64,000 nt of DNA, taken from contig JBAIAA010001539.1 of assembly GCA_037893245.1 (NCBI GenBank), forward strand, positions 20,078-84,077, written 5' to 3'. Below, piece after piece: positions 1-64,000 of the stretch (positions within the stretch are counted from its first letter, which is position 1; every line of letters begins with the position of its first letter). The stretch comes from Crossaster papposus (lineage: Eukaryota > Echinodermata > Asteroidea > Velatida > Solasteridae). A program made the translations under genes and the position numbers. The notes under the pieces are model-generated. The model worked only from the letters and a program-made list of their open reading frames with translations, ran no database searches and was not told the DNA's origin.

Positions 1-239
1 ACTTCTTTCCCTTTACATATTTCTTATGCACACTTCTTTCCCTTTACATATTTCTTATGCACACTTCTTTCCTTTTACATATTTCTTATGCACACTTCTT
101 TCCCTTTACATATTTCTTATGCACACTTCTTTCCCTTTACATATTTCTTATGCACACTTCTTTCCCTTTACATATTTCTTATGCACACTTCTTTCCCTTT
201 ACATATTTCTTATGCACACTTCTTTCCCTTTACATATTT

Positions 240-275
240 AACTCGAGGGCTTGTCCCGACATCATGTGTTTATTT
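240..275 (+). repeat. 36-bp inserted segment, type A (prototype)
   Basis: A 36-bp segment sits between CATATTT and CTTATGCAC of a unit. It carries CTCGAG (an XhoI site) at 242-247, then GGGCTTGTCCCGACATC, and ends GTGTTTATTT. Its first A completes a TAA with the preceding T, the only regular plus-strand stop in the array. Type A is defined by GTCCCGAC. The 21 type A copies start at 240, 1862, 2580, 2864, 3706, 4424, 4708, 5922, 7482, 8546, 10168, 10886, 11170, 18240, 21315, 42002, 44912, 47044, 50495, 60275 and 63571. Type A dominates the first 11 kb and then opens each module after 42,002. Confidence 0.95.
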
Positions 276-1453
276 CTTATGCACACTTCTTTCCCTTTAC
301 ATATTTCTTATGCACACTTCTTTCCCTTTACATATTTCTTATGCACACTTCTTTCCCTTTACATATTTCTTATGCACACTTCTTTCCCTTTACATATTTC
401 TTATGCACACTTCTTTCCCTTTACATATTTCTTATGCACACTTCTTTCCCTTTACATATTTCTTATGCACACTTCTTTCCCTTTACATATTTCTTATGCA
501 CACTTCTTTCCCTTTACATATTTCTTATGCACACTTCTTTCCCTTTACATATTTCTTATGCACACTTCTTTCCCTTTACATATTTCTTATGCACACTTCT
601 TTCCCTTTACATATTTATTATGCACACTTCTTTCCCTTTACATATTTCTTATGCACACTTCTTTCCCTTTACATATTTCTTATGCACACTTCTTTCCCTT
701 TACATATTTCTTATGCACACTTCTTTCCCTTTACATATTTCTTATGCACACTTCTTTCCCTTTACATATTTCTAATGCACACTTCTTTCCCTTTACATAT
801 TTCTTATGCACACTTCTTTCCCTTTACATATTTCTTATGCACACTTCTTTCCCTTTACATATTTCTTATGCACACTTCTTTCCCTTTACGTATTTCTTAT
901 GCACACTTCTTTCCCTTTACATATTTCTTATGCACACTTCTTTCCCTTTACATATTTCTTATGCACACTTCTTTCCCTTTACATATTTCTTATGCACACT
1001 TCTTTCCCTTTACATATTTCTTATGCACACTTCTTTCCCTTTACATATTTCTTATGCACACTTCTTTCCCTTTACATATTTCTTATGCACACTTCTTTCC
1101 CTTTACATATTTCTTATGCACACTTCTTTCCCTTTACATATTTCTTATGCACACTTCTTTCCCTTTACATATTTCTTATGCACACTTCTTTCCCTTTACA
1201 TATTTCTTATGCACACTTCTTTCCCTTTACATATTTCTTATGCACACTTCTTTCCCTTTACATATTTCTTATGCACACTTCTTTCCCTTTACATATTTCT
1301 TATGCACACTTCTTTCCCTTTACATATTTCTTATGCACACTTCTTTCCCTTTACATATTTCTTATGCACACTTCTTTCCCTTTACATATTTCTTATGCAC
1401 ACTTCTTTCCCTTTACATATTTCTTATGCACACTTCTTTCCCTTTACATATTT

Positions 1454-1489
1454 AACTCGAGGGCTTGTTCCCACATCATGTGTTAATTT
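1454..1489 (+). repeat. 36-bp segment, B variant ending GTTAATTT
   Basis: B-type segment with GTGTTAATTT instead of GTGTTTATTT at its 3' end. The only other copy with this change is at 9760-9795, exactly 8,306 bp away, which ties both to one duplication. Confidence 0.93.
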
Positions 1490-1501
1490 CTTATGCACAC
1501 T

Positions 1502-3345
1502 TCTTTCCCTTTACATATTTCTTATGCACACTTCTTTCCCTTTACATATTTCTTATGCACACTTCTTTCCCTTTACATATTTCTTATGCACACTTCTTTC
1601 CCTTTACATATTTCTTATGCACACTTCTTTCCCTTTACATATTTCTTATGCACACTTCTTTCCCTTTACATATTTCTTATGCACACTGCTTTCCCTTTAC
1701 GTATTTCTTATGCACACTTCTTTCCCTTTACATATTTCTTATGCCCACTTCTTTCCCTTTACATATTTCTTATGCACACTTCTTTCCCTTTACATATTTC
1801 TTATGCACACTTCTTTCCCTTTACATATTTCTTATGCACACTTCTTTCCCTTTACATATTTAACTCGAGGGCTTGTCCCGACATCATGTGTTTATTTCTT
1901 ATGCACACTTCTTTCCCTTTACATATTTCTTATGCACACTTCTTTCCCTTTACATATTTCTTATGCACACTTCTTTCCCTTTACATATTTCTTATGCACA
2001 CTTCTTTCCCTTTACATATTTCTTATGCACACTTCTTTCCCTTTACATATTTCTTATGCACACTTCTTTCCCTTTACATATTTCTTATGCACACTTCTTT
2101 CCCTTTACATATTTCTTATGCACACTTCTTTCCCTTTACATATTTCTTATGCACACTTCTTTCCCTTTACATATTTCTTATGCACACTTCTTTCCCTTTA
2201 CATATTTCTTATGCACACTTCTTTCCCTTTACATATTTCGTATGCACACTTCTTTCCCTTTACATATTTCTTATGCACACTTCTTTCCCTTTACATATTT
2301 CTTATGCACACTTCTTTCCCTTTACATATTTCTTATGCACACTTCTTTCCCTTTACATATTTCTTATGCACACTTCTTTCCCTTTACATATTTCTTATGC
2401 ACACTTCTTTCCCTTTAAATATTTCTTATGCACACTTCTTTCCCTTTACATATTTCTTATGCACACTTCTTTCCCTTTACATATTTCTTATGCACACTTC
2501 TTTCCCTTTACATATTTCTTATGCACACTTCTTTCCCTTTACATATTTCTTATGCACACTTCTTTCCCTTTACATATTTAACTCGAGGGCTTGTCCCGAC
2601 ATCATGTGTTTATTTCTTATGCACACTTCTTTCCCTTTACATATTGCTTATGCACACTTCTTTCCCTTTACATATTTCTTATGCACACTTCTTTCCCTTT
2701 ACATATTTCTTATGCACACTTCTTTCCCTTTACATATTTCTTATGCACACTTCTTTCCCTTTACATATTGCTTATGCACACTTCTTTCCCTTTACATATT
2801 TCTTATGCACACTTCTTTCCCTTTACATATTTCTTATGCACACTTCTTTCCCTTTACATATTTAACTCGAGGGCTTGTCCCGACATCATGTGTTTATTTC
2901 TTATGCACACTTCTTTCCCTTTACATATTTCTTATGCACACTTCTTTCCCTTTACATATTTCTTATGCACACTTCTTTCCCTTTACATATTTCTTATGCA
3001 CACTTCTTTCCCTTTACATATTTCTTATGCACACTTCTTTCCCTTTACATATTTCTTATGCACACTTCTTTCCCTTTACATATTTCTTATGCACACTTCT
3101 TTCCCTTTACATATTTCTTATGCACACTTCTTTCCCTTTACATATTTCTTATGCACACTTCTTTCCCTTTACATATTTCTTATGCACACTTCTTTTCCTT
3201 TACATATTTCTTATTCACACTTCTTTCCCTTTACATATTTTTTATGCACACTTCTTTCCCTTTACATATTTCTTATGCACACTTCTTTCCCTTTACATAT
3301 TTCTTATGCACACTTCTTTCCCTTTACATATTTCTTAAGCACATT
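1502..3345 (+). repeat. 1,844-bp tandem duplication, first copy
   Basis: Segments at 1862, 2580 and 2864 recur at 3706, 4424 and 4708, and the marker cluster ACTGCTTTCC / TACGTATT / TGCCCAC recurs at 3531-3593. The period equals 56 units plus 3 segments. The segment at 1454 has no partner at 3298, so the left boundary lies between about 1,490 and 1,690; the value given is approximate. Confidence 0.88.
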
Positions 3346-5189
3346 TCTTTCCCTTTACATATTTCTTATGCACACTTCTTTCCCTTTACATATTTCTTAT
3401 GCACACTTCTTTCCCTTTACATATTTCTTATGCACACTTCTTTCCCTTTACATATTTCTTATGCACACTTCTTTCCCTTTACATATTTCTTATGCACACT
3501 TCTTTCCCTTTACATATTTCTTATGCACACTGCTTTCCCTTTACGTATTTCTTATGCACACTTCTTTCCCTTTACATATTTCTTATGCCCACTTCTTTCC
3601 CTTTACATATTTCTTATGCACACTTCTTTCCCTTTACATATTTCTTATGCACACTTCTTTCCCTTTACATATTTCTTATGCACACTTCTTTCCCTTTACA
3701 TATTTAACTCGAGGGCTTGTCCCGACATCATGTGTTTATTTCTTATGCACACTTCTTTCCCTTTACATATTTCTTATGCACACTTCTTTCCCTTTACATA
3801 TTTCTTATGCACACTTCTTTCCCTTTACATATTTCTTATGCACACTTCTTTCCCTTTACATATTTCTTATGCACACTTCTTTCCCTTTACATATTTCTTA
3901 TGCACACTTCTTTCCCTTTACATATTTCTTATGCACACTTCTTTCCCTTTACATATTTCTTATGCACACTTCTTTCCCTTTACATATTTCTTATGCACAC
4001 TTCTTTCCCTTTACATATTTCTTATGCACACTTCTTTCCCTTTACATATTTCTTATGCACACTTCTTTCCCTTTACATATTTCGTATGCACACTTCTTTC
4101 CCTTTACATATTTCTTATGCACACTTCTTTCCCTTTACATATTTCTTATGCACACTTCTTTCCCTTTACATATTTCTTATGCACACTTCTTTCCCTTTAC
4201 ATATTTCTTATGCACACTTCTTTCCCTTTACATATTTCTTATGCACACTTCTTTCCCTTTAAATATTTCTTATGCACACTTCTTTCCCTTTACATATTTC
4301 TTATGCACACTTCTTTCCCTTTACATATTTCTTATGCACACTTCTTTCCCTTTACATATTTCTTATGCACACTTCTTTCCCTTTACATATTTCTTATGCA
4401 CACTTCTTTCCCTTTACATATTTAACTCGAGGGCTTGTCCCGACATCATGTGTTTATTTCTTATGCACACTTCTTTCCCTTTACATATTGCTTATGCACA
4501 CTTCTTTCCCTTTACATATTTCTTATGCACACTTCTTTCCCTTTACATATTTCTTATGCACACTTCTTTCCCTTTACATATTTCTTATGCACACTTCTTT
4601 CCCTTTACATATTGCTTATGCACACTTCTTTCCCTTTACATATTTCTTATGCACACTTCTTTCCCTTTACATATTTCTTATGCACACTTCTTTCCCTTTA
4701 CATATTTAACTCGAGGGCTTGTCCCGACATCATGTGTTTATTTCTTATGCACACTTCTTTCCCTTTACATATTTCTTATGCACACTTCTTTCCCTTTACA
4801 TATTTCTTATGCACACTTCTTTCCCTTTACATATTTCTTATGCACACTTCTTTCCCTTTACATATTTCTTATGCACACTTCTTTCCCTTTACATATTTCT
4901 TATGCACACTTCTTTCCCTTTACATATTTCTTATGCACACTTCTTTCCCTTTACATATTTCTTATGCACACTTCTTTCCCTTTACATATTTCTTATGCAC
5001 ACTTCTTTCCCTTTACATATTTCTTATGCACACTTCTTTTCCTTTACATATTTCTTATTCACACTTCTTTCCCTTTACATATTTTTTATGCACACTTCTT
5101 TCCCTTTACATATTTCTTATGCACACTTCTTTCCCTTTACATATTTCTTATGCACACTTCTTTCCCTTTACATATTTCTTAAGCACATT
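3346..5189 (+). repeat. 1,844-bp tandem duplication, second copy
   Basis: Shares the private markers TTTTCC, TTATTCAC, TTTTTTATG and TTAAGCACATTT (the last near 3335 and 5179) with the first copy. The 8,307-11,206 duplicate holds only one copy of this block, so the tandem doubling differs between two otherwise matching stretches. Confidence 0.87.
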
Positions 5190-5479
5190 TCTTTCCCTTT
5201 ACATATTTCTTATGCACACTTCTTTCCCTTTACATATTTCTTATGCACACTTCTTTCCCTTTACATATTTCTTATGCACACTTCTTTCCCTTTACATATT
5301 TCTTATGCACACTTCTTTCCCTTTACATATTTCTTATGCACACTTCTTTCCCTTTACATATTTCTTATGCACACTTCTTTCCCTTTACATATTTCTTATG
5401 CACACTTCTTTCCCTTTACATATTTCTTATGCACACTTCTTTCCCTTTACATATTTCTTATGCACACTTCTTTCCCTTT

Positions 5480-5957
5480 ACATATTTCTTATGCACACTT
5501 CTTTCCTTTTACATATTTCTTATGCACACTTCTTTCCCTTTACATATTTCTTATGCACACTTCTTTCCCTTTACATATTTCTTATGCACACTTATTTCCC
5601 TTTACATATTTCTTATGCACCCTTCTTTCCCTTTACATATTTCTTATGCACACTTCTTTCCCTTTACATATTTCTTATGCACACTTCTTTCCCTTTACAT
5701 ATTTCTTATGCACACTTCTTTCCCTTTACATATTTCTTATGCACACTTCTTTCCCTTTACATATTTCTTATGCACACTTCTTTCCCTTTACATATTTATT
5801 ATGCACACTTCTTTCCCTTTACATATTTCTTATGCACACTTCTTTCCCTTTACATATTTCTTATGCACACTTCTTTCCCTTTACATATTTCTTATGCACA
5901 CTTCTTTCCCTTTACATATTTAACTCGAGGGCTTGTCCCGACATCATGTGTTTATTT
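5480..5957 (+). repeat. 1,560-bp-spaced duplication, copy 1
   Basis: Markers TTCCTTTTAC (near 5509), CTTATTTCCC (near 5590), CACCCTTC (near 5617), TTTATTATG (5798) and the type A segment at 5922 all recur 1,560 bp downstream. 1,560 is 48 units plus 2 segments. Outer limits are approximate. Confidence 0.82.
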
Positions 5958-6484
5958 CTTATGCACACTTCTTTCCCTTTACATATTTCTTATGCACACT
6001 TCTTTCCCTTTACATATTTCTTATGCACACTTCTTTCCCTTTACATATTTCTTATGCACACTTCTTTCCCTTTACATATTTCTTATGCACACTTCTTTCC
6101 CTTTACATATTTCTTATGCACACTTCTTTCCCTTTACATATTTCTTATGCACACTTCTTTCCCTTTACATATTTCTTATGCACACTTATTTCCCTTTACA
6201 TATTTCTTATGCACACTTATTTCCCTTTACATATTTCTTATGCACACTTATTTCCCTTTACATATTTCTTATGCACACTTCTTTCCCTTTACATATTTCT
6301 TATGCACACTTCTTTCCCTTTACATATTTCTTATGCACACTTCTTTCCCTTTACATATTTCTTATGCACACTTCTTTCCCTTTACATATTTATTATGCAC
6401 ACTTCTTTCCCTTTACATATTTCTTATGCACACTTCTTTCCCTTTACATATTTCTTATGCACACTTCTTTCCCTTTACATATTT

Positions 6485-6520
6485 AACTCGAGGGCTTGTT
6501 TCCACATCATGTGTTTATTT
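6485..6520 (+). repeat. 36-bp segment, B variant with GTTTCCAC
   Basis: Singleton. One further base differs from type B (GTTTCCAC), and the downstream unit begins TTTATTATG rather than TTTCTTATG. It lies in the irregular stretch between 5,190 and 8,300. Confidence 0.92.
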
Positions 6521-7039
6521 ATTATGCACACTTCTTTCCCTTTACATATTTCTTATGCACACTTCTTTCCCTTTACATATTTCTTATGCACACTTCTTTC
6601 CCTTTACATATTTCTTATGCACACTTCTTTCCCTTTACATATTTCTTATGCACACTTCTTTCCCTTTACATATTTTGTATGCACACTTCTTTCCCTTTAC
6701 ATATTTGTTATGCACACTTCTTTCCCTTTACATATTTCTTATGCACACTTCTTTCCCTTTACATATTTCTTATGCACACTTCTTTCCCTTTACATATTTC
6801 TTATGCACATTTCTTTCCCTTTACATATTTCTTATGCACACTTCTTTCCCTTTACATATTTCTTATGCACACTTCTTTCCCTTTACATATTTCTTATGCA
6901 CACTTCTTTCCCTTTACATATTTCTTATGCACACTTCTTTCCCTTTACATATTTCTTATGCACACTTCTTTCCCTTTACATATTTCTTATGCACACTTCT
7001 TTCCCTTTACATATTTCTTATGCACACTTCTTTCCCTTT

Positions 7040-7517
7040 ACATATTTCTTATGCACACTTCGTTCCTTTTACATATTTCTTATGCACACTTCTTTCCCTT
7101 TACATATTTCTTATGCACACTTCTTTCCCTTTACATATTTCTTATGCACACTTATTTCCCTTTACATATTTCTTATGCACCCTTCTTTCCCTTTACATAT
7201 TTCTTATGCACACTTCTTTCCCTTTACATATTTCTTATGCACACTTCTTTCCCTTTACATAATTCTTATGCACACTTCTTTCCCTTTACATATTTCTTAT
7301 GCACACTTCTTTCCCTTTACATATTTCTTATGCACACTTCTTTCCCTTTACATATTTATTATGCACACTTCTTTCCCTTTACATATTTCTTATGCACACT
7401 TCTTTCCCTTTACATATTTCTTATGCACACTTCTTTCCCTTTACATATTTCTTATGCACACTTCTTTCCCTTTACATATTTAACTCGAGGGCTTGTCCCG
7501 ACATCATGTGTTTATTT
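7040..7517 (+). repeat. 1,560-bp-spaced duplication, copy 2
   Basis: Partner of 5,480-5,957, ending in the type A segment at 7482. It differs by CGTTCC for CTTTCC near 7061 and ATAATTC for ATATTTC near 7261. Confidence 0.8.
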
Positions 7518-8013
7518 CTTATGCACACTTCTTTCCCTTTACATATTTCTTATGCACACTTCTTTCCCTTTACATATTTCTTATGCACACTTCTTTCCCT
7601 TTACATATTTATTATGCACACTTCTTTCCCTTTACATATTTCTTATGCACACTTCTTTCCCTTTACATATTTCTTATGCACACTTCTTTCCCTTTACATA
7701 TTTCTTATGCACACTTCTTTCCCTTTACATATTTTTTATGCACACTTCTTTCCCTTTACATATTTCTTATGCACACTTCTTTCCCTTTACATATTTCTTG
7801 TGCACACTTCTTTCCCTTTACATATTTCTTATGCACACTTCTTTCCCTTTACATATTTCTTATGCACACTTCTTTCCCTTTACATATTTCTTGTGCACAC
7901 TTCTTTCCCTTTACATATTTCTTATGCACACTTCTTTCCCTTTACATATTTCTTATGCACACTTCTTTCCCTTTACATATTTCTTATGCACACTTCTTTC
8001 CCTTTACATATTT

Positions 8014-8049
8014 AACTCGAGGGCTTGTTCCCACATCATGTGTTTATTT
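8014..8049 (+). repeat. 36-bp inserted segment, type B (prototype)
   Basis: Same entry point and length as type A, but GTTCCCAC replaces GTCCCGAC (two substitutions). This removes one CpG and completes an 11-bp dyad, CACAT-C-ATGTG. The 52 unmodified B copies start at 8014, 19268, 20388, 22343, 23463, 23808, 29503, 29632, 32334, 33021, 33150, 34089, 34218, 36641, 36770, 37457, 38611, 38740, 39024, 39215, 39344, 40217, 41032, 41161, 42689, 42818, 43972, 44101, 45599, 46104, 46233, 47731, 47860, 48731, 48798, 48927, 49370, 51120, 51249, 52120, 52187, 52316, 53281, 54650, 58158, 58225, 60962, 61091, 61962, 62029, 62158 and 62601. Confidence 0.95.
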
Positions 8050-8306
8050 CTTATGCACACTTCTTTCCCTTTACATATTTCTTATGCACACTTCTTTCCC
8101 TTTACATATTTCTTATGCACACTTCTTTCCCTTTACATATTTCTTATGCACACTTCTTTCCCTTTACATATTTCTTATGCACACTTCTTTCCCTTTACAT
8201 ATTTCTTATGCACACTTCTTTCCCTTTACATATTTCTTATGCACACTTCTTTCCCTTTACATATTTCTTATGCACACTTCTTTCCCTTTACATATTTCTT
8301 ATGCAC

Positions 8307-11206
8307 ACTTCTTTCCCTTTACATATTTCTTATGCACACTTCTTTCCCTTTACATATTTCTTATGCACACTTCTTTCCTTTTACATATTTCTTATGCACA
8401 CTTCTTTCCCTTTACATATTTCTTATGCACACTTCTTTCCCTTTACATATTTCTTATGCACACTTCTTTCCCTTTACATATTTCTTATGCACACTTCTTT
8501 CCCTTTACATATTTCTTATGCACACTTCTTTCCCTTTACATATTTAACTCGAGGGCTTGTCCCGACATCATGTGTTTATTTCTTATGCACACTTCTTTCC
8601 CTTTACATATTTCTTATGCACACTTCTTTCCCTTTACATATTTCTTATGCACACTTCTTTCCCTTTACATATTTCTTATGCACACTTCTTTCCCTTTACA
8701 TATTTCTTATGCACACTTCTTTCCCTTTACATATTTCTTATGCACACTTCTTTCCCTTTACATATTTCTTATGCACACTTCTTTCCCTTTACATATTTCT
8801 TATGCACACTTCTTTCCCTTTACATATTTCTTATGCACACTTCTTTCCCTTTACATATTTCTTATGCACACTTCTTTCCCTTTACATATTTCTTATGCAC
8901 ACTTCTTTCCCTTTACATATTTATTATGCACACTTCTTTCCCTTTACATATTTCTTATGCACACTTCTTTCCCTTTACATATTTCTTATGCACACTTCTT
9001 TCCCTTTACATATTTCTTATGCACACTTCTTTCCCTTTACATATTTCTTATGCACACTTCTTTCCCTTTACATATTTCTAATGCACACTTCTTTCCCTTT
9101 ACATATTTCTTATGCACACTTCTTTCCCTTTACATATTTCTTATGCACACTTCTTTCCCTTTACATATTTCTTATGCACACTTCTTTCCCTTTACGTATT
9201 TCTTATGCACACTTCTTTCCCTTTACATATTTCTTATGCACACTTCTTTCCCTTTACATATTTCTTATGCACACTTCTTTCCCTTTACATATTTCTTATG
9301 CACACTTCTTTCCCTTTACATATTTCTTATGCACACTTCTTTCCCTTTACATATTTCTTATGCACACTTCTTTCCCTTTACATATTTCTTATGCACACTT
9401 CTTTCCCTTTACATATTTCTTATGCACACTTCTTTCCCTTTACATATTTCTTATGCACACTTCTTTCCCTTTACATATTTCTTATGCACACTTCTTTCCC
9501 TTTACATATTTCTTATGCACACTTCTTTCCCTTTACATATTTCTTATGCACACTTCTTTCCCTTTACATATTTCTTATGCACACTTCTTTCCCTTTACAT
9601 ATTTCTTATGCACACTTCTTTCCCTTTACATATTTCTTATGCACACTTCTTTCCCTTTACATATTTCTTATGCACACTTCTTTCCCTTTACATATTTCTT
9701 ATGCACACTTCTTTCCCTTTACATATTTCTTATGCACACTTCTTTCCCTTTACATATTTAACTCGAGGGCTTGTTCCCACATCATGTGTTAATTTCTTAT
9801 GCACACTTCTTTCCCTTTACATATTTCTTATGCACACTTCTTTCCCTTTACATATTTCTTATGCACACTTCTTTCCCTTTACATATTTCTTATGCACACT
9901 TCTTTCCCTTTACATATTTCTTATGCACACTTCTTTCCCTTTACATATTTCTTATGCACACTTCTTTCCCTTTACATATTTCTTATGCACACTGCTTTCC
10001 CTTTACGTATTTCTTATGCACACTTCTTTCCCTTTACATATTTCTTATGCCCACTTCTTTCCCTTTACATATTTCTTATGCACACTTCTTTCCCTTTACA
10101 TATTTCTTATGCACACTTCTTTCCCTTTACATATTTCTTATGCACACTTCTTTCCCTTTACATATTTAACTCGAGGGCTTGTCCCGACATCATGTGTTTA
10201 TTTCTTATGCACACTTCTTTCCCTTTACATATTTCTTATGCACACTTCTTTCCCTTTACATATTTCTTATGCACACTTCTTTCCCTTTACATATTTCTTA
10301 TGCACACTTCTTTCCCTTTACATATTTCTTATGCACACTTCTTTCCCTTTACATATTTCTTATGCACACTTCTTTCCCTTTACATATTTCTTATGCACAC
10401 TTCTTTCCCTTTACATATTTCTTATGCACACTTCTTTCCCTTTACATATTTCTTATGCACACTTCTTTCCCTTTACATATTTCTTATGCACACTTCTTTC
10501 CCTTTACATATTTCTTATGCACACTTCTTTCCCTTTACATATTTCGTATGCACACTTCTTTCCCTTTACATATTTCTTATGCACACTTCTTTCCCTTTAC
10601 ATATTTCTTATGCACACTTCTTTCCCTTTACATATTTCTTATGCACACTTCTTTCCCTTTACATATTTCTTATGCACACTTCTTTCCCTTTACATATTTC
10701 TTATGCACACTTCTTTCCCTTTAAATATTTCTTATGCACACTTCTTTCCCTTTACATATTTCTTATGCACACTTCTTTCCCTTTACATATTTCTTATGCA
10801 CACTTCTTTCCCTTTACATATTTCTTATGCACACTTCTTTCCCTTTACATATTTCTTATGCACACTTCTTTCCCTTTACATATTTAACTCGAGGGCTTGT
10901 CCCGACATCATGTGTTTATTTCTTATGCACACTTCTTTCCCTTTACATATTGCTTATGCACACTTCTTTCCCTTTACATATTTCTTATGCACACTTCTTT
11001 CCCTTTACATATTTCTTATGCACACTTCTTTCCCTTTACATATTTCTTATGCACACTTCTTTCCCTTTACATATTGCTTATGCACACTTCTTTCCCTTTA
11101 CATATTTCTTATGCACACTTCTTTCCCTTTACATATTTCTTATGCACACTTCTTTCCCTTTACATATTTAACTCGAGGGCTTGTCCCGACATCATGTGTT
11201 TATTTC
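8307..11206 (+). repeat. Long direct duplication, copy 2
   Basis: Partner of 1-2,900. The 8,306-bp offset equals 254 units plus 12 inserted segments exactly. Correspondence is lost between 11,206 and 11,499: the TTTTCC variant near 3,193 of copy 1 has no counterpart here. This copy instead runs into the invariant block. Confidence 0.9.
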
Positions 11207-11755
11207 TTATGCACACTTCTTTCCCTTTACATATTTCTTATGCACACTTCTTTCCCTTTACATATTTCTTATGCACACTTCTTTCCCTTTACATATTTCT
11301 TATGCACACTTCTTTCCCTTTACATATTTCTTATGCACACTTCTTTCCCTTTACATATTTCTTATGCACACTTCTTTCCCTTTACATATTTCTTATGCAC
11401 ACTTCTTTCCCTTTACATATTTCTTATGCACACTTCTTTCCCTTTACATATTTCTTATGCACACTTCTTTCCCTTTACATATTTCTTATGCACACTTCTT
11501 TCCCTTTACATATTTCTTATGCACACTTCTTTCCCTTTACATATTTCTTATGCACACTTCTTTCCCTTTACATATTTCTTATGCACACTTCTTTCCCTTT
11601 ACATATTTCTTATGCACACTTCTTTCCCTTTAAATATTTCTTATGCACACTTCTTTCCCTTTACATATTTCTTATGCACACTTCTTTCCCTTTACATATT
11701 TCTTATGCACACTTCTTTCCCTTTACATATTTCTTATGCACACTTCTTTCCCTTT

Positions 11756-23780: not shown

Positions 23781-23843
23781 TGCACACTTCTTTCCCTTTA
23801 CATATTTAACTCGAGGGCTTGTTCCCACATCATGTGTTTATTT

Positions 23844-47043: not shown

Positions 47044-48730
47044 AACTCGAGGGCTTGTCCCGACATCATGTGTTTATTTCTTATGCACACTTCTTTCCCT
47101 TTACATATTTCTTATGCACACTTCTTTCCCTTTACATATTTCTTATGCACACTTCTTTCCCTTTACATATTTCTTATGCACACTTCTTTCCCTTTACATA
47201 TTTCTTATGCACACTTCTTTCCCTTTACATATTTCTTATGCACACTTCTTTCCCTTTACATATTTCTTATGCACACTTCTTTCCCTTTACATATTTCTTA
47301 TGCACACTTCTTTCCCTTTACATATTTCTTATGCACACTTCTTTCCCTTTACATATTTCTTATGCACACTTCTTTCCCTTTACATATTTCTTATGCACAC
47401 TTCTTTCCCTTTACATATTTCTTATGCACACTTCTTTCCCTTAACATATTTCTTATGCACACTTCTTTCCCTTTACATATTTATTATGCACACTTCTTTC
47501 CCTTTACATATTTCTTATGCACACTTCTTTCCCTTTACATATTTCTTATGCACACTTCTTTCCCTTTACATATTTCTTATGCACACTTCTTTCCCTTTAC
47601 ATATTTCTTATGCACACTTCTTTCCCTTTACATATTTCTTATGCACACTTCTTTCCCTTTACATATTTCTTATGCACACTTCTTTCCCTTTACATATTTC
47701 TTATGCACACTTCTTTCCCTTTACATGTTTAACTCGAGGGCTTGTTCCCACATCATGTGTTTATTTCTTATGCACACTTCTTTCCCTTTACATATTTCTT
47801 ATGCACACTTCTTTCCCTTTACATATTTCTTATGCACACTTCTTTCCCTTTACATATTTAACTCGAGGGCTTGTTCCCACATCATGTGTTTATTTCTTAT
47901 GCACACTTCTTTCCCTTTACATATTTCTTATGCACACTTCTTTCCCTTTACATATTTCTTATGCACACTTCTTTCCCTTTACATATTTCTTATGCACACT
48001 TCTTTCCCTTTACATATTTCTTATGCACACTTCTTTCCCTTTACATATTTCTTATGCACACTTCTTTCCCTTTACATATTTCTTATGCACACTTCTTTCC
48101 CTTTACATATTTCTTATGCACACTTCTTTCCCTTTACATATTTCTTATGCACACTTCTTTCCCTTTACATATTTCTTATGCACACTTCTTTCCCTTTACA
48201 TATTTCTTATGCACACTTCTTTCCCTTTAGATATTTCTTATGCACACTTCTTTCCCTTTACATATTCATTATGCACACTTCTTTCCCTTTACATATTTCT
48301 TATGCACACTTCTTTCCCTTTACATATTTCTTATGCACACTTCTTTCCCTTTATTATTTCTTATGCACACTTCTTTCCCTTTACATATTTCTTATGCACA
48401 CTTCTTTCCATTTACATATTTCTTATGCACACTTCTTTCCCTTTACATATTTCTTATGCACACTTCTTTCCCTTTACATATTTCTTATGCACACTTCTTT
48501 CCCTTTATTATTTCTTATGCACACTTCTTTCCCTTTACATATTTCTTATGCACACTTCTTTACCTTTACATAATTCTTATGCACACTTCTTTCCCTTTAC
48601 ATATTTCTTATGCACACTTCTTTCCCTTTACATATTTCTTATGCACACTTCTTTCCCTTTATATATTTCTTATGCACACTTCTTTCCCTTTACATATTTC
48701 TTATGCACACTTCTTTCCCTTTACATATTT

Positions 48731-48962
48731 AACTCGAGGGCTTGTTCCCACATCATGTGTTTATTTCTTATGCACACTTCTTTCCCTTTACATATTTAAC
48801 TCGAGGGCTTGTTCCCACATCATGTGTTTATTTCTTATGCACACTTCTTTCCCTTTACATATTTCTTATGCACACTTCTTTCCCTTTACATATTTCTTAT
48901 GCACACTTCTTTCCCTTTACATATTTAACTCGAGGGCTTGTTCCCACATCATGTGTTTATTT
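48731..48962 (+). repeat. Segment triad, unmodified type (prototype of three)
   Basis: Same 1-unit and 3-unit spacing as the CGACGG triads but with an intact CTCGAG in all three segments. Others start at 52120 and 61962. Each is preceded by a CTTTATATATTT unit about 90 bp upstream. Confidence 0.92.
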
Positions 48963-49302
48963 CTTATGCACACTTCTTTCCCTTTACATATTTCTTATGC
49001 ACACTTCTTTCCCTTTACATATTTCTTATGCACACTTCTTTCCCTTTACATATTTCTTATGCACACCTCTTTCCCTTTATTATTTCTTATGCACACTTCT
49101 TTCCCTTTACATATTTCTTATGCACACTTCTTTCCCTTTACATATTTCTTATGCACACTTCTTTCCCTTTACATATTTCTTATGCACACTTCTTTCCCTT
49201 TACATATTTCTTATGCACACTTCTTTCCCTTTATATATTTCTTATGCACACTTCTTTCCCTTTACATATTTCTTATGCACACTTCTTTCCCTTTACATAT
49301 TT

Positions 49303-49534
49303 AACTCGAAGGCTTGTTCCCACATCATGTGTTTATTTCTTATGCACACTTCTTTCCCTTTACATATTTAACTCGAGGGCTTGTTCCCACATCATGTGTT
49401 TATTTCTTATGCACACTTCTTTCCCTTTACATATTTCTTATGCACACTTCTTTCCCTTTACATATTTTTTATGCACACTTCTTTCCCTTTACATATTTAA
49501 CTCGAGGGCTTGTTCCCACATCATGTCTTTATTT
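49303..49534 (+). repeat. Segment triad, CGAAGG type (prototype of two)
   Basis: First segment reads CTCGAAGG, and the third (49499) ends CATGTCTTTATTT instead of CATGTGTTTATTT. Both marks recur only at 62534-62765, 13,231 bp downstream. Confidence 0.93.
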
Positions 49535-52500
49535 CTTATGCACACTTCTTTCCCTTTACATATTTCTTATGCACACTTCTTTCCCTTTACATATTTCTTA
49601 TGCACACTTCTTTCCCTTTACATATTTTTTATGCACACTTCTTTCCCTTTACATATTTCTTATGCACACTTCTTTCCCTTTACATATTTCTTATGCACAC
49701 TTCTTTCCCTTTACATATTTCTTATGCACACTTCTTTCCCTTTACATATTTCTTATGCACACTTCTTTCCCTTTACATATTTCTTATGCACACTTCTTTC
49801 CCTTTACATATTTCTTATGCACACTTCTTTCCCTTTACATATTTCTTATGCACACTTCTTTCCCTTTACATATTTCTTATGCACACTTCTTTCCCTTTAC
49901 ATATTTCTTATGCACACTTCTTTCCCTTTACATATTTCTTATGCACACTTCTTTCCCTTTACATATTTCTTATGCACACTTCTTTCCCTTTACATATTTC
50001 TTATGCACACTTCTTTCCCTTTACATATTTCTTATGCACACTTCTTTCCCTTTACATATTTCTTATGCACACTTCTTTCCCTTTACATATTTCTTATGCA
50101 CACTTCTTTCCCTTTACATATTTCTTATGCACACTTCTTTCCCTTTACATATTTCTTATGCACACTTCTTTCCCTTTACATATTTCTTATGCACACTTCT
50201 TTCCCTTTACATATTTCTTATGCACACTACTTTCCCTTTACATATTTCTTATGCACACTTCTTTCCCTTTACATATTTCTTATGCACACTTCTTTCCCTT
50301 TACATATTTCTTATGCACACTTCTTTCCCTTTACATATTTCTTAGGCACACTTCTTTCCCTTTACATATTTCTTATGCACACTTCTTTCCCTTTACATAT
50401 TTCTTATGCACACTTCTTTCCCTTTACATATTTCTTATGCACACTTCTTTCCCTTTATTATTTCTTATGCACACTTCTTTCCCTTTACATATTTAACTCG
50501 AGGGCTTGTCCCGACATCATGTGTTTATTTCTTATGCACACTTCTTTCCCTTTACATATTTCTTATGCACACTTCTTTCCCTTTACATATTTCTTATGCA
50601 CACTTCTTTCCCTTTACATATTTCTTATGCACACTTCTTTCCCTTTACATATTTCTTATGCACACTTCTTTCCCTTTACATATTTCTTATGCACACTTCT
50701 TTCCCTTTACATATTTCTTATGCACACTTCTTTCCCTTTACATATTTCTTATGCACACTTCTTTCCCTTTACATATTTCTTATGCACACTTCTTTCCCTT
50801 TACATATTTCTTATGCACACTTCTTTCCCTTTACATATTTCTTATGCACACTTCTTTCCCTTTACATATTTCTTATGCACACTTCTTTCCCTTTACATAT
50901 TTCTTATGCACACTTCTTTCCCTTTACATATTTCTTATGCACACTTCTTTCCCTTTACATATTTCTTATGCACACTTCTTTCCCTTTACATATTTCTTAT
51001 GCACACTTCTTTCCCTTTACATATTTCTTATGCACACTTCTTTCCCTTTACATATTTCTTATGCACACTTCTTTCCCTTTACATATTTCTTATGCACACT
51101 TCTTTCCCTTTACATGTTTAACTCGAGGGCTTGTTCCCACATCATGTGTTTATTTCTTATGCACACTTCTTTCCCTTTACATATTTCTTATGCACACTTC
51201 TTTCCCTTTACATATTTCTTATGCACACTTCTTTGCCTTTACATATTTAACTCGAGGGCTTGTTCCCACATCATGTGTTTATTTCTTATGCACACTTCTT
51301 TCCCTTTACATATTTCTTATGCACACTTCTTTCCCTTTACATATTTCTTATGCACACTTCTTTCCCTTTACATATTTCTTATGCACACTTCTTTCCCTTT
51401 ACATATTTCTTATGCACACTTCTTTCCCTTTACATATTTCTTATGCACACTTCTTTCCCTTTACATATTTCTTATGCACACTTCTTTCCCTTTACATATT
51501 TCTTATGCACACTTCTTTCCCTTTACATATTTATTATGCACACTTCTTTCCCTTTACATATTTCTTATGCACACTTCTTTCCCTTTACATATTTCTTATG
51601 CACACTTCTTTCCCTTTACATATTTCTTATGCACACTTCTTTCCCTTTACATATTCATTATGCACACTTCTTTCCCTTTACATATTTCTTATGCACACTT
51701 CTTTCCCTTTACATATTTCTTATGCACACTTCTTTCCCTTTATTATTTCTTATGCACACTTCTTTCCCTTTACATATTTCTTATGCACACTTCTTTCCAT
51801 TTACATATTTCTTATGCACACTTCTTTCCCTTTACATATTTCTTATGCACACTTCTTTCCCTTTACATATTTCTTATGCACACTTCTTTCCCTTTATTAT
51901 TTCTTATGCACACTTCTTTCCCTTTACATATTTCTTATGCACACTTCTTTACCTTTACATAATTCTTATGCACACTTCTTTCCCTTTACATATTTCTTAT
52001 GCACACTTCTTTCCCTTTACATATTTCTTATGCACACTTCTTTCCCTTTATATATTTCTGATGCACACTTCTTTCCCTTTACATATTTCTTATGCACACT
52101 TCTTTCCCTTTACATATTTAACTCGAGGGCTTGTTCCCACATCATGTGTTTATTTCTTATGCACACTTCTTTCCCTTTACATATTTAACTCGAGGGCTTG
52201 TTCCCACATCATGTGTTTATTTCTTATGCACACTTCTTTCCCTTTACATATGTCTTATGCACACTTCTTTCCCTTTACATATTTCTTATGCACACTTCTT
52301 TCCCTTTACATATTTAACTCGAGGGCTTGTTCCCACATCATGTGTTTATTTCTTATGCACACTTCTTTCCCTTTACATATTTCTTATGCACACTTCTTTC
52401 CCTTTACATATTTCTTATGCACACTTCTTTCCCTTTACATATTTCTTATGCACACTTCTTTCCCTTTATTATTTCTTATGCACACTTCTTTCCATTTACA

Positions 52501-54685
52501 TATTTCTTATGCACACTTCTTTCCCTTTACATATTTCTTATGCACACTTCTTTCCCTTTACATATTTCTTATGCACACTTCTTTCCGTTTACATATTTCT
52601 TATGCACACTTCTTTCCCTTTACATATTTCTTATGCACACTTCTTTCCCTTTACATATTTCTTATGCACACTTCTTTCCCTTTACATATTTCTTATGCAC
52701 ACTTCTTTCCCTTTACATATTTCTTATGCACACTTCTTTCCCTTTACATATTTCTTATGCACACTTCTTTCCCTTTACATATTTCTTATGCACACTTCTT
52801 TCCCTTTACATATTTCTTATGCACACTTCTTTCCCTTTACATATTTCTTATGCACACTTCTTTCCCTTTACATATTTCGTATGCACACTTCTTTCCCTTT
52901 ACATATTTCTTATGCACACTTCTTTCCCTTTACATATTTCTTATGCACACTTCTTTCCCTTTACATATTTCTTATGCACACTTCTTTCCCTTTACATATT
53001 TCTTATGCACACTTCTTTCCTTTTACATATTTCTTATGCACACTTCTTTCCCTTTACATATTTCTTATGCACACTTCTTTCCCTTTACATATTTCTTATG
53101 CACACTTCTTTCCCTTTACATATTTCTTATGCACACTTCTTTCCCTTTACATATTTCTTATGCACACTTCTTTCCCTTTACATATTTCTTATGCACACTT
53201 CTTTCCCTTTACATATTTCTTATGCACACTTCTTTCCCTATACATATTTCTTATGCACACTTCTTTCCCTTTACATATTTAACTCGAGGGCTTGTTCCCA
53301 CATCATGTGTTTATTTCTTATGCACACTTCTTTCCCTTTACATATTTCTTATGCACACTTCTTTCCCTTTACATATTTCTTATGCACACTTCTTTCCCTT
53401 TACATATTTCTTATGCACACTTCTTTCCCTTTACATATTTCTTATGCACACTTCTTTCCCTTTACATATTTCTTATGCACACTTCTTTCCCTTTACATAT
53501 TTCTTATGCACACTTCTTTCCCTTTACATATTTCTTATGCACACTTCTTTCCCTTTACATATTTCTTATGTACACTTCTTTCCCTTTACATATTTCTTAT
53601 GCACACTTCTTTCCCTTTACATATTTCTTATGCACACTTCTTTCCCTTTACATATTTATTATGCACACTTCTTTCCCTTTACATATTTCTTATGCACACT
53701 TCTTTCCCTTTACATATTTATTATGCACACTTCTTTCCCTTTACATATTTCTTATGCACACTTCTTTCCCTTTACATATTTCTTATGCACACTTCTTTCC
53801 ATTTACATATTTCTTATGCACACTTCTTTCCCTTTACATATTTTTTATGCACACTTCTTTCCCTTTACATATTTCTTATGCACACTTCTTTCCCTTTACA
53901 TATTTCTTATGCACACTTCTTTCCCTTTACATATTTCTTATGCACACTTCTTTCCCTTTACATATTTCTTATGCACACTTCTTTCCCTTTACATATTTCT
54001 TATGCACACTTCTTTCCCTTTACATATTTCTTATGCACACTTCTTTCCCTTTACATATTTCTTATGCACACTTCTTTCCCTTTACATATTTCTTATGCAC
54101 ACTTCTTTCCCTTTACATATTTCTTATGCACACTTCTTTCCCTTTACATATTTCTTATGCACACTTCTTTCCCTTTACATATTTCTTATGCACACTTCTT
54201 TCCCTTTACATATTTCTTATGCACACTTCTTTCCCTTTACACATTTCTTATGCACACTTCTTTCCCTTTACATATTTCTTATGCACACTTCTTTCCCTTT
54301 ACATATTTCTTATGCACACTTCTTTCCCTTTACATATTTCTTATGCACACTTCTTTCCCTTTACATATTTCTTATGCACACTTCTTTCCCTTTACATATT
54401 TCTTATGCACACTTCTTTCCCTTTACATATTTCTTATGCACACTTCTTCCCCTTTACATATTTCTTATGTACACTTCTTTCCCTTTACATATTTCTTATG
54501 CACACTTCTTTCCCTTTACATATTTCTTATGCACACTTCTTTCCCTTTACATATTTATTATGCACACTTCTTTCCCTTTACATATTTCTTATGCACACTT
54601 CTTTCCCTATACATATTTCTTATGCACACTTCTTTCCCTTTACATATTTAACTCGAGGGCTTGTTCCCACATCATGTGTTTATTT

Positions 54686-57600: not shown

Positions 57601-57920
57601 TTATGCACACTTCTTTCCCTTTACATATTTCTTATGCACACTTCTTTCCCTTTACATATTTCTTATGCACACTTCTTTCCCTTTACATATTTCTTATGCA
57701 CACTTCTTTCCCTTTACATATTTCTTATGCACACTTCTTTCCCTTTACATATTTCTTATGCACACTTCTTTCCCTTTACATATTTCTTATGCACACTTCT
57801 TTCCCTTTACATATTTCTTATGCACACTTCTTTCCCTTTACATATTTCTTATGCACACTTCTTTCCCTTTACATATTTCTTATGCACACTTCTTTCCCTT
57901 TACATATTTCTTATGCACAC
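54686..57920 (+). repeat. Near-invariant 31-bp unit block 3
   Basis: Starts right after the B segment at 54650 and ends at TTCCTTCTCTTTAC near 57,922. About 104 successive units without a visible substitution or length change. Unlike blocks 1 and 2 it contains no off-length unit. Confidence 0.92.
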
Positions 57921-58157
57921 TTCCTTCTCTTTACATATTTCTTATGCACACTTCTTTCCCTTTACATATTTCTTATGCACACTTCTTTCCCTTTACATAT
58001 TTCTTATGCACACTTCTTTCCCTTTACATATTTCTTATGCACACTTCTTTCCCTTTACATATTTCTTATGCACACTTCTTTCCCTTTACATATTTCTTAT
58101 GCACACTTCTTTCCCTTTACATATTTCTTATGCACACTTCTTTCCCTTTACATATTT

Positions 58158-58260
58158 AACTCGAGGGCTTGTTCCCACATCATGTGTTTATTTCTTATGC
58201 ACACTTCTTTCCCTTTACATATTTAACTCGAGGGCTTGTTCCCACATCATGTGTTTATTT
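58158..58260 (+). repeat. Segment pair one unit apart
   Basis: Two B segments separated by one unit, as in the first two members of a triad, but the third is absent: regular units follow for over 2 kb. It closes the stretch after invariant block 3. Confidence 0.9.
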
Positions 58261-60008
58261 CTTATGCACACTTCTTTCCCTTTACATATTTCTTATGCAC
58301 ACTTCTTTCCCTTTACATATTTCTTATGCACACTTCTTTCCCTTTACATATTTCTTATGCACACTTCTTTCCCTTTACATATTTCTTATGCACACTTCTT
58401 TCCCTTTACATATTTCTTATGCACACTTCTTTCCCTTTACATATTTCTTATGCACACTTCTTTCCCTTTACATATTTCTTATGCACACTTCTTTCCCTTT
58501 ACATATTTCTTATGCACACTTCTTTCCCTTTACATATTTCTTATGCACACTTCTTTCCCTTTACATATTTCTTATGCACACTTCTTTCCCTTTACATATT
58601 TCTTATGCACACTTCTTTCCCTTTACATATTTCTTATGCACACTTCTTTCCCTTTACATATTTCTTATGCACACTTCTTTCCCTTTACATATTTCTTATG
58701 CACACTTCTTTCCCTTTACATATTTCTTATGCACACTTCTTTCCCTTTACATATTTCTTATGCACACTTCTTTCCCTTTACATATTTCTTATGCACACTT
58801 CTTTCCCTTTACATATTTCTTATGCACACTTCTTTCCCTTTACATATTTCTTATGCACACTTCTTTCCCTTTACATATTTCTTATGCACACTTCTTTCCC
58901 TTTACATATTTCTTATGCACACTTCTTTCCCTTTACATATTTCTTATGCACACTTCTTTCCCTTTACATATTTCGTATGCACACTTCTTTCCCTTTACAT
59001 ATTTCTTATGCACACTTCTTTCCCTTTACATATTTCTTATGCACACTTCTTTCCCTTTACATATTTCTTATGCACACTTCTTTCCCTTTACATATTTCTT
59101 ATGCACACTTCTTTCCCTTTACATATTTCTTATGCACACTTCTTTCCCTTTACATATTTCTTATGCACACTTCTTTCCCTTTACATATTTCTTATGCACA
59201 CTTCTTTCCCTTTACATATTTCTTATGCACACTTCTTTCCCTTTACATATTTCTTATGCACACTTCTTTCCCCTTACATATTTCTTATGCACACTTCTTT
59301 CCCTTTACATATTTCTTATGCACACTTCTTTCCCTTTACATATTTCTTATGCACACTTCTTTCCCTTTACATATTTCTTATGCACACTTCTTTCCCTTTA
59401 CATATTTCTTATGCACACTTCTTTCCCTTTACATATTTCTTATGCACACTTCTTTCCCTTTACATATTTATTATGCACACTTCTTTCCCTTTACATATTT
59501 CTTATGCACACTTCTTCCCCTTTACATATTTCTTATGCACACTTCTTTCCCTTTACATATTTCTTATGCACACTTCTTTTCCTTTACATATTTCTTATGC
59601 ACACTTCTTTCCCTTTACATATTTCTTATGCACACTTCTTTCCCTTTACATATTTCTTATGCACACTTCTTTCCCTTTACATATGTCTTATGCACACTTC
59701 TTTCCCTTTACATATTTCTTATGCACACTTCTTTCCCTTTACATATTTCTTATGCACACTTCTTTCCCTTTACATATTTCTTATGCACACTTCTTTCCCT
59801 TTACATATTTCTTATGCACACTTCTTTCCCTTTACATATTTCTTATGCACACTTCTTTCCCTTTACATATTTCTTATGCACACTTCTTTCCCTTTACATA
59901 TTTCTTATGCACACTTCTTTCCCTTTACATATTTCTTATGCACACTTCTTTCCCTTTACATATTTCTTATGCACACTTCTTTCCCTTTACATATTTCTTA
60001 TGCACACT

Positions 60009-60022
60009 TCTTTCCTTTACAT
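60009..60022 (+). repeat. Off-length unit: 1-bp loss
   Basis: CTTTCCTTTAC, one C lost from the CCC run, just upstream of the start of the 13,231-bp-spaced duplication. Confidence 0.9.
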
Positions 60023-60274
60023 ATTTCTTATGCACACTTCTTTCCCTTTACATATTTCTTATGCACACTTCTTTCCCTTTACATATTTCTTATGCACACT
60101 TCTTTCCCTTTACATATTTCTTATGCACACTTCTTTCCCTTTACATATTTCTTAGGCACACTTCTTTCCCTTTAAATATTTCTTATGCACACTTCTTTCC
60201 CTATACATATTTCTTATGCACACTTCTTTCCCTTTACATATTTCTTATGCACACTTCTTTCCCTTTACATATTT

Positions 60275-63200
60275 AACTCGAGGGCTTGTCCCGACATCAT
60301 GTGTTTATTTCTTATGCACACTTCTTTCCCTTTACATATTTCTTATGCACACTTCTTTCCCTTTACATATTTCTTATGCACACTTCTTTCCCTTTACATA
60401 TTTCTTATGCACACTTCTTTCCCTTTACATATTTCTTATGCACACTTCTTTCCCTTTACATATTTCTTATGCACACTTCTTTCCCTTTACATATTTCTTA
60501 TGCACACTTCTTTCCCTTTACATATTTCTTATGCACACTTCTTTCCCTTTACATATTTCTTATGCACACTTCTTTCCCTTTACATATTTCTTATGCACAC
60601 TTCTTTCCCTTTACATATTTCTTATGCACACTTCTTTCCCTTTACATATTTCTTATGCACACTTCTTTCCCTTAACATATTTCTTATGCACACTTCTTTC
60701 CCTTTACATATTTCTTATGCACACTTCTTTCCCTTTACATATTTCTTATGCACACTTCTTTCCCTTTACATATTTCTTATGCACACTTCTTTCCCTTTAC
60801 ATATTTCTTATGCACACTTCTTTCCCTTTACATATTTCTTATGCACACTTCTTTCCCTTTACATATTTCTTATGCACACTTCTTTCCCTTTACATATTTC
60901 TTATGCACACTTCTTTCCCTTTACATATTTCTTATGCACACTTCTTTCCCTTTACATGTTTAACTCGAGGGCTTGTTCCCACATCATGTGTTTATTTCTT
61001 ATGCACACTTCTTTCCCTTTACATATTTCTTATGCACACTTCTTTCCCTTTACATATTTCTTATGCACACTTCTTTCCCTTTACATATTTAACTCGAGGG
61101 CTTGTTCCCACATCATGTGTTTATTTCTTATGCACACTTCTTTCCCTTTACATATTTCTTATGCACACTTCTTTCCCTTTACATATTTCTTATGCACACT
61201 TCTTTCCCTTTACATATTTCTTATGCACACTTCTTTCCCTTTACATATTTCTTATGCACACTTCTTTCCCTTTACATATTTCTTATGCACACTTCTTTCC
61301 CTTTACATATTTCTTATGCACACTTCTTTCCCTTTACATATTTCTTATGCACACTTCTTTCCCTTTACATATTTCTTATGCACACTTCTTTCCCTTTACA
61401 TATTTCTTATGCACACTTCTTTCCCTTTACATATTTCTTATGCACACTTCTTTCCCTTTAGATATTTCTTATGCACACTTCTTTCCCTTTACATATTCAT
61501 TATGCACACTTCTTTCCCTTTACATATTTCTTATGCACACTTCTTTCCCTTTACATATTTCTTATGCACACTTCTTTCCCTTTATTATTTCTTATGCACA
61601 CTTCTTTCCCTTTACATATTTCTTATGCACACTTCTTTCCATTTACATATTTCTTATGCACACTTCTTTCCCTTTACATATTTCTTATGCACACTTCTTT
61701 CCCTTTACATATTTCTTATGCACACTTCTTTCCCTTTATTATTTCTTATGCACACTTCTTTCCCTTTACATATTTCTTATGCACACTTCTTTACCTTTAC
61801 ATAATTCTTATGCACACTTCTTTCCCTTTACATATTTCTTATGCACACTTCTTTCCCTTTACATATTTCTTATGCACACTTCTTTCCCTTTATATATTTC
61901 TTATGCACACTTCTTTCCCTTTACATATTTCTTATGCACACTTCTTTCCCTTTACATATTTAACTCGAGGGCTTGTTCCCACATCATGTGTTTATTTCTT
62001 ATGCACACTTCTTTCCCTTTACATATTTAACTCGAGGGCTTGTTCCCACATCATGTGTTTATTTCTTATGCACACTTCTTTCCCTTTACATATTTCTTAT
62101 GCACACTTCTTTCCCTTTACATATTTCTTATGCACACTTCTTTCCCTTTACATATTTAACTCGAGGGCTTGTTCCCACATCATGTGTTTATTTCTTATGC
62201 ACACTTCTTTCCCTTTACATATTTCTTATGCACACTTCTTTCCCTTTACATATTTCTTATGCACACTTCTTTCCCTTTACATATTTCTTATGCACACCTC
62301 TTTCCCTTTATTATTTCTTATGCACACTTCTTTCCCTTTACATATTTCTTATGCACACTTCTTTCCCTTTACATATTTCTTATGCACACTTCTTTCCCTT
62401 TACATATTTCTTATGCACACTTCTTTCCCTTTACATATTTCTTATGCACACTTCTTTCCCTTTATATATTTCTTATGCACACTTCTTTCCCTTTACATAT
62501 TTCTTATGCACACTTCTTTCCCTTTACATATTTAACTCGAAGGCTTGTTCCCACATCATGTGTTTATTTCTTATGCACACTTCTTTCCCTTTACATATTT
62601 AACTCGAGGGCTTGTTCCCACATCATGTGTTTATTTCTTATGCACACTTCTTTCCCTTTACATATTTCTTATGCACACTTCTTTCCCTTTACATATTTTT
62701 TATGCACACTTCTTTCCCTTTACATATTTAACTCGAGGGCTTGTTCCCACATCATGTCTTTATTTCTTATGCACACTTCTTTCCCTTTACATATTTCTTA
62801 TGCACACTTCTTTCCCTTTACATATTTCTTATGCACACTTCTTTCCCTTTACATATTTTTTATGCACACTTCTTTCCCTTTACATATTTCTTATGCACAC
62901 TTCTTTCCCTTTACATATTTCTTATGCACACTTCTTTCCCTTTACATATTTCTTATGCACACTTCTTTCCCTTTACATATTTCTTATGCACACTTCTTTC
63001 CCTTTACATATTTCTTATGCACACTTCTTTCCCTTTACATATTTCTTATGCACACTTCTTTCCCTTTACATATTTCTTATGCACACTTCTTTCCCTTTAC
63101 ATATTTCTTATGCACACTTCTTTCCCTTTACATATTTCTTATGCACACTTCTTTCCCTTTACATATTTCTTATGCACACTTCTTTCCCTTTACATATTTC

Positions 63201-63570
63201 TTATGCACACTTCTTTCCCTTTACATATTTCTTATGCACACTTCTTTCCCTTTACATATTTCTTATGCACACTTCTTTCCCTTTACATATTTCTTATGCA
63301 CACTACTTTCCCTTTACATATTTCTTATGCACACTTCTTTCCCTTTACATATTTCTTATGCACACTTCTTTCCCTTTACATATTTCTTATGCACACTTCT
63401 TTCCCTTTACATATTTCTTAGGCACACTTCTTTCCCTTTACATATTTCTTATGCACACTTCTTTCCCTTTACATATTTCTTATGCACACTTCTTTCCCTT
63501 TACATATTTCTTATGCACACTTCTTTCCCTTTATTATTTCTTATGCACACTTCTTTCCCTTTACATATTT
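60275..63570 (+). repeat. Type A-opened module 5 (3,296 bp)
   Basis: Near copy of module 3 at an offset of 13,231 bp: segments at 60275, 60962, 61091, 61962, 62029, 62158, 62534, 62601 and 62730 match one for one with subtype. After 62730 the offset falls to 13,076 bp (CACTACTTTCC at 63304 against 50228; A segment 63571 against 50495), so exactly five units are missing here or extra in module 3. Confidence 0.92.
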
Positions 63571-64000
63571 AACTCGAGGGCTTGTCCCGACATCATGTGT
63601 TTATTTCTTATGCACACTTCTTTCCCTTTACATATTTCTTATGCACACTTCTTTCCCTTTACATATTTCTTATGCACACTTCTTTCCCTTTACATATTTC
63701 TTATGCACACTTCTTTCCCTTTACATATTTCTTATGCACACTTCTTTCCCTTTACATATTTCTTATGCACACTTCTTTCCCTTTACATATTTCTTATGCA
63801 CACTTCTTTCCCTTTACATATTTCTTATGCACACTTCTTTCCCTTTACATATTTCTTATGCACACTTCTTTCCCTTTACATATTTCTTATGCACACTTCT
63901 TTCCCTTTACATATTTCTTATGCACACTTCTTTCCCTTTACATATTTCTTATGCACACTTCTTTCCCTTTACATATTTCTTATGCACACTTCTTTCCCTT
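63571..64000 (+). repeat. Type A-opened module 6, cut by window end
   Basis: A-type segment at 63571-63606 followed by unvaried units to the end of the window, matching the start of the other type A-opened modules. Confidence 0.85.

Follow-up and report, generated by a model that had tools for sequence, protein, structure and literature searches.

We analyzed a stretch of 64,000 nucleotides (here called the window) that consists of a satellite array built from two components, a 31-bp unit (A) and a 36-bp segment (B). The window corresponds to C1537:20078-84077, that is, the last 64,000 of the 84,077 bp of this contig, in an assembly of 1,023,315,904 bases and 1,841 contigs. Units were counted with a two-unit dynamic-programming parse (A, 31 bp; B, 36 bp), which divided the window into 1967 A and 85 B, exactly the 31-bp monomer and the 85 copies of a 36-bp segment that the initial annotation had described. 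The main row reported by Tandem Repeats Finder (TRF) on the window was a single 31-bp array spanning positions 1-64000. The 20,077 bases of the contig that lie beyond the window were parsed as well and turned out to be the same satellite, so that the whole 84,077-bp contig is satellite, with 2572 A and 123 B, one of the latter being cut at the contig start. As expected for satellite DNA, the contig forms one long head-to-tail array of near-identical units: 86.1% of its 31-bp A are identical to the consensus, and the mean divergence of A is 0.50%. A 30-bp variant of A, in which TTTATTATTT replaces TTTACATATTT, was also found, and all 14 copies of its commonest form lie within window positions 37927-63510, in the right-hand part of the contig.

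The 14-mer AACTCGAGGGCTTG is present 78 times in the window, many more times than chance would give. The contig has 122 full-length B, all of which have the same orientation (0 in reverse) and lie in one register with respect to A, bearing out the single site and single direction that had been noticed at the outset. The sequence before B is ACATATTT in 116 copies, ACATGTTT in 5, and ACATCTTT in 1, the latter two being one-base variants, and the sequence after B is CTTATGCA in 120 copies and ATTATGCA in 2. No two B were adjacent in the two-unit parse of the contig. Because B ends in TATTT, like A, its boundary is ambiguous by 5 bp, and it can therefore also be described as a core of 31 bp with TATTT to either side. 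Such a direct repeat is what a target-site duplication would leave, and microhomology would also predict the TATTT pair. Two linked types of B occur over the contig, type 1 (TTCCC) in 74 copies and type 2 (TCCCG) in 46, with 2 copies belonging to neither. The CTCGAG inside B varies in 7/122 copies, and there is no sign that B is retained base by base. We also considered B as a diverged A monomer and rejected this, since the score of the local alignment of B with A did not clearly exceed that of shuffled B (for the five B forms tried, it was reached by 68 to 352 of 1000 dinucleotide shuffles). The segment thus looks as unrelated to A as had been stated. The array has two components without detectable similarity, and the mixture is not ordinary monomer variation.

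In the window contig, even the lag that performs best (266 units) matches just 10.6% of the variant units. The array thus lacks a fixed higher-order period, and a fixed higher-order repeat of A and B was rejected for want of a dominant period. Instead, the array contains block duplications of various sizes. The largest block listed in Table 1 is a recent segmental duplication that took B copies along. To quantify such sharing, we counted for each full-length B (n = 122) the extra variant units in common with its best partner in an unbroken alignment. The mean was 11.7, compared to 0.70 when the A units were shuffled (20 shuffles, maximum of 0.82), and 111/122 B had at least one variant unit in common with their best partner. 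The nine commonest A variants behaved likewise, 50 to 100% of their copies having at least one in common. B copies therefore have flanking variants in common far above shuffles, indicating that most B copies were made by segmental duplication of their neighborhoods. Spread by this route gives a fixed register, and targeting is thus not needed.

Table 1. Coordinates of satellite features in the window
Feature	Position in window	Strand	Description
Satellite array of unit A	1..64000	+	31-bp unit, consensus CTTATGCACACTTCTTTCCCTTTACATATTT; 1967 units by parse
First B	240..275	+	AACTCGAGGGCTTGTCCCGACATCATGTGTTTATTT, type 2
First type-1 B	1454..1489	+	TTGTTCCCAC
Block of 211 units, second copy	4899..11500 (end approximate)	+	44 variant units; identical to a block that begins at window coordinate -3407 (shift of 8,306 bp)
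Block of 81 units	47514..50100 (end approximate)	+	21 variant units; identical to block at 60745
Block of 81 units, second copy	60745..63330 (end approximate)	+	
All 85 B (starts)	240, 1454, 1862, 2580, 2864, 3706, 4424, 4708, 5922, 6485, 7482, 8014, 8546, 9760, 10168, 10886, 11170, 18240, 19268, 20388, 21315, 22343, 23463, 23808, 29503, 29632, 32334, 33021, 33150, 34022, 34089, 34218, 36641, 36770, 37457, 38544, 38611, 38740, 39024, 39215, 39344, 40217, 40965, 41032, 41161, 42002, 42689, 42818, 43905, 43972, 44101, 44912, 45599, 46037, 46104, 46233, 47044, 47731, 47860, 48731, 48798, 48927, 49303, 49370, 49499, 50495, 51120, 51249, 52120, 52187, 52316, 53281, 54650, 58158, 58225, 60275, 60962, 61091, 61962, 62029, 62158, 62534, 62601, 62730, 63571		

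Other loci were sampled at 60 contig starts distributed over the numbering, some of them near the window contig, and thus not at random; 2 of these starts begin with N, and one belongs to the mitochondrial genome. A-type arrays were found at 9 of the 60 starts (C1400, C1560, C1590, C1600, C1610, C1630, C1650, C1700, and C1720), and a different satellite, with a 43-bp unit (C), was found at 4 (C10, C1300, C1350, and C1410), so that both satellites occupy several loci, as satellite DNA does. In the 10-kb samples of C1400, C1600, and C1700 and in 300 bases of C1650, all 51 B had the same orientation and register as in the window, with point changes in the flanks of five.

The C array of contig C10 was followed in five 10-kb samples (L007 and L024 to L027) of its 283,406 bases. 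Runs of C alternate in it with modules, and the order is fixed: a C run, one to three B-A pairs, a 49-bp unit (D), and the next C run. The parse gave 917 units of C, 113 each of A and B, and 67 of D. Excluded from these counts is roughly 0.8 kb of L026, where the parser had fitted units by force to an unrelated minisatellite. That minisatellite, at L026 9188-10000, has units of 25 and 40 bp (TCCCATTGAATCACATCCCATTGGG...) and adjoins the 43-bp array. A directly followed B in 113/113 cases. After A came either D (65) or TTTAA and another B (48), and after D came C in 66 cases, the last D being the end of a sample. B was preceded by C in 65 cases and by A-TTTAA in 48. The samples contained no A-A step (0/113 A) and no B-B step. 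In the sampled DNA, B is thus always preceded by C or A-TTTAA and followed by A in C10, and in A arrays it always sits in one register. The order was broken by just two C-to-D steps, both in L024 and next to an inverted C unit and D remnants; this site (at about 5700-5800, with two D remnants) is a small rearrangement inside C10.

The 65 modules contained one B-A pair in 21 cases, two in 40, and three in 4. Where a single C lies between modules, the result is a 154-bp unit, C43-B34-A28-D49 in the order of the window strand, and TRF reported tandem stretches of this unit in 4/5 C10 samples and listed a 222-bp form in the fifth. Since every B sampled in C10 is followed by A, A and B are neighbors there in a 154-bp composite repeat C-B-A-D, and B therefore looks like a left-over part of the repeat from which A was derived. 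The reading of the initial annotation in which B recurrently and site-specifically interrupts A is therefore probably wrong, given this constant neighborhood and the shared flanks described above. The commonest C10 form of B is 1 base from the type-1 consensus and 3 from type 2. In addition, A and C arrays have in common an 11-bp stretch, TACATATTTAA, that precedes B (before CTCGAG); exact TACATATTT was found before B in 111/122 cases in the window contig and in 101/113 in C10. A site resembling D and a site resembling the end of A, both in L018, were rejected because their surroundings are unrelated.

The breakpoints of the derived repeats of 43, 67, and 31 bp carry direct repeats of 5 bp (TTTAA), 6 bp (TACATA), and 5 bp (TATTT, within the 67-bp pair), respectively. 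Such repeats are rare in this sequence: direct repeats of at least 5 bases lie at 1.0% of the position pairs of the 154-bp circle and at 0.9% of those of the 67-bp circle, and repeats of at least 6 bases at 0.16% of those of the 154-bp circle (pairs at least 15 bp apart). The breakpoint repeats fit tandem duplication between short direct repeats.

Taken together, these data make it likely that the A array descends from the 154-bp composite repeat C-B-A-D and that the window has kept relics of the array's founder in its B copies. From the module order and the breakpoints, we infer a series of events and the recombination behind them. A and B would have begun as adjacent pieces of the older composite repeat. 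Duplication of C between two TTTAA would have given the 43-bp satellite, and duplication of B and A between two TACATA would have given 67-bp pairs. Within these pairs, A alone would then have been duplicated between two TATTT, yielding the 31-bp unit, which would have expanded into long arrays in the lineage of the window. The founder-relic B would have been kept and copied along by unequal exchange between A units. Because such exchange pairs A with A, B would always be found in one register and never beside itself, and because of the exchange at TACATA, TACATATTTAA would precede B in A and C arrays alike. We also lean, with somewhat less assurance, to the wider proposal that one 154-bp composite repeat gave rise in one genome to three tandem repeats (31, 43, and 67 bp), each through a different direct repeat of 5 to 6 bp, with relic pieces still in place that record the order of events.

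The fate of B was followed in a toy simulation in which exchange occurred between A units only, with two exchange lengths and 60 runs each. Starting from a founder relic with one B, at least 60 B copies were reached in 31/60 and 29/60 runs, and starting from two B, in 50/60 and 47/60 runs. When a single B was placed late into a mature array, this number was reached in 0/60 and 0/60 runs. No B-B pair appeared in any run with A-only exchange. A separate simulation dealt with late insertion only: it started from 2000 A with a single B and let any unit take part in exchange. Of its 300 runs, 297 lost B, and the other 3 kept at most 8 copies.

Several observations weigh against descent from the composite repeat or limit what can be built on it. 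Eleven of the 122 B have no variant unit in common with their best partner. A comparison of the window contig with three other A contigs, represented by five 10-kb samples, found no common block with at least 5 variant units. Neither an outgroup species nor an old dispersed 154-bp copy was found in the sampled DNA, and we therefore infer the polarity of the change. None of the sampled contigs has A arrays meeting C arrays. Divergence gives no clear time order either: in C10 it is 1.26% for A, 0.95% for D, 0.36% for B, and 0.49% for C, so that A and D lie above the value for A in the window contig and B and C do not. Any joint probability for the breakpoints is post hoc, and these direct repeats could also have arisen as target-site duplications of insertions, as B is flanked by TATTT and BA..D by TTTAA, which holds TTAA. 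Finally, the simulation parameters are arbitrary, and the runs therefore speak to plausibility only.

An alternative is that B entered an existing A array once, as repair filler or as a mobile fragment with a 5-bp TATTT duplication, and spread by unequal exchange, a B-A fragment being later captured with D into a C array. We regard this as possible but unlikely. It accommodates the TATTT on both sides of B, which is also the A-A junction, and it accounts for the register through spread by duplication alone. However, it leaves the presence of TACATATTTAA before B in both kinds of arrays as a coincidence, and it does not sit well with C10, where no A follows another A, though runs of A dominate the A arrays. 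The simulations also speak against it, since 60 copies were never reached in the 120 late-insertion runs and B was nearly always lost when exchange was allowed at any unit. Repeated insertion, at the TATTT of the A monomer, of a mobile unit as short as 31 bp (plus a 5-bp duplication) would explain the single register, the single orientation, and the direct repeats. Nevertheless, it is highly improbable: the common flanking variants indicate copying of neighborhoods, only one orientation is seen, the two linked B types show no recombinants among 122 copies, no terminal inverted repeats were seen by eye, and no sampled locus has B without A.

The CENP-B box motif is NTTCGNNNNANNCGGGN, and B might be a protein-binding box held by selection at intervals, as the CENP-B box is in alpha satellite. 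Two dyads in B, CTCGAG and CACAT-C-ATGTG (recognized by eye), and the presence of B in each of the four A contigs for which at least 10 kb was read would agree with such a role. We nevertheless judge it very unlikely, as the best CENP-B-box match in B has 5/9 fixed bases, CTCGAG itself varies between copies, one 10-kb sample has a single B, and a relic spread by duplication is enough to explain the distribution. No unit consensus had more than 6/9 fixed bases, and we therefore do not class the array as a CENP-B-box satellite. That the A/B mixture is an artefact of assembly is scarcely credible. Long identical blocks such as the 211 units found 8,306 bp apart could be assembly duplications, but the same B in the same register, accompanied by other variant patterns, is present in C1400, C1600, C1700, and C1650, and a related B-A pair is present in C10. 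Descent of A from the composite repeat, with B as its relic, is the reading we favor. As for the function of the array, it most likely serves as ordinary heterochromatin, if anything.

Other contigs gave observations on the source of the DNA and on its repeats. Contig C1841 (16,330 bp, of which the first 10 kb was examined) is mitochondrial, with frames for COX1, COX2, ATP6, ND1, and ND2 (named by eye) that are open under code 9, the sole code applied. The genes for tRNA-Glu, tRNA-Thr, and COX1 are on the plus strand, and those for 16S, ND1, and ND2 are on the minus strand. The arrangement would agree with the gene order of sea stars, in which the 16S block is inverted, and suggests an echinoderm, probably a sea star. 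The start of contig C1800 (L022, 1-10000) carries histone genes in tandem units of about 6.25 kb, with H3, H4, H2A, and H2B frames (named by eye); every unit also has a gene for U2 snRNA. The stretch extends over one complete unit and into a second. Two further satellites lie at contig starts, one of 131 bp in C2 (L005, 1-10000; 99% match between copies) and one of 199 bp in C1200 (L011, 1-10000; 98% match between copies).

Several known systems resemble the array in part. In the higher-order repeats of human alpha satellite, variant units are copied in blocks by unequal exchange. The window contig shares this block copying but, unlike alpha satellite, has no fixed higher-order period. Bovine and cervid satellite I have 31-bp subrepeats, and bovine satellites contain inserted sequences. 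The present array is similar in its 31-bp unit and in having foreign segments within a satellite; however, those satellites are mammalian. The common length of 31 bp is probably a coincidence. Satellite-like arrays are carried by Helentrons in oysters (PMC7492417). Helentron arrays combine short tandem repeats with constant companion sequences, as the present array does; the DNA sampled here, however, showed neither the ends of an element nor dispersed copies. A parallel in mechanism is given by the tandem repeats derived from CRM in maize. According to PMC3648361, these are proposed to have originated in successive events of illegitimate recombination at short homologies, after which homogenizing exchange or conversion would have spread them. 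In both cases, a satellite would have arisen from an amplified part of a longer repeat, and its founding would have involved short homology. The parent in maize is a centromeric retrotransposon and the homologies are trinucleotides (PMC3648361), whereas the parent here would be a 154-bp composite repeat. Three descendant tandem repeats and a neighboring piece, B, that stays in the derived array further distinguish the present case. General background on microhomology and the birth of repeats is given in PMC9659126.

The initial annotation had recognized no described family, and in agreement with this, searches of open-access full texts for the sequences themselves, for 31-bp and starfish satellites, and for the origin of satellites found no description of the A/B pair. 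The one match to sequence letters, PMC5362230, was judged to be unrelated, as it deals with MCPIP1 and C/EBP beta, and PMC10153287 names a starfish in its references and a data table.

How new satellites start is poorly known because homogenization erases their first copies. What we describe is ordinary satellite biology, but it is a clean case of satellite birth. The relic units and the related composite array, found in one genome, preserve the junctions that let the steps be read. Moreover, the fixed register gives the appearance of targeted insertion but would be expected to result from exchange between homologous monomers. The array is thus an example of how new satellite DNA may start.

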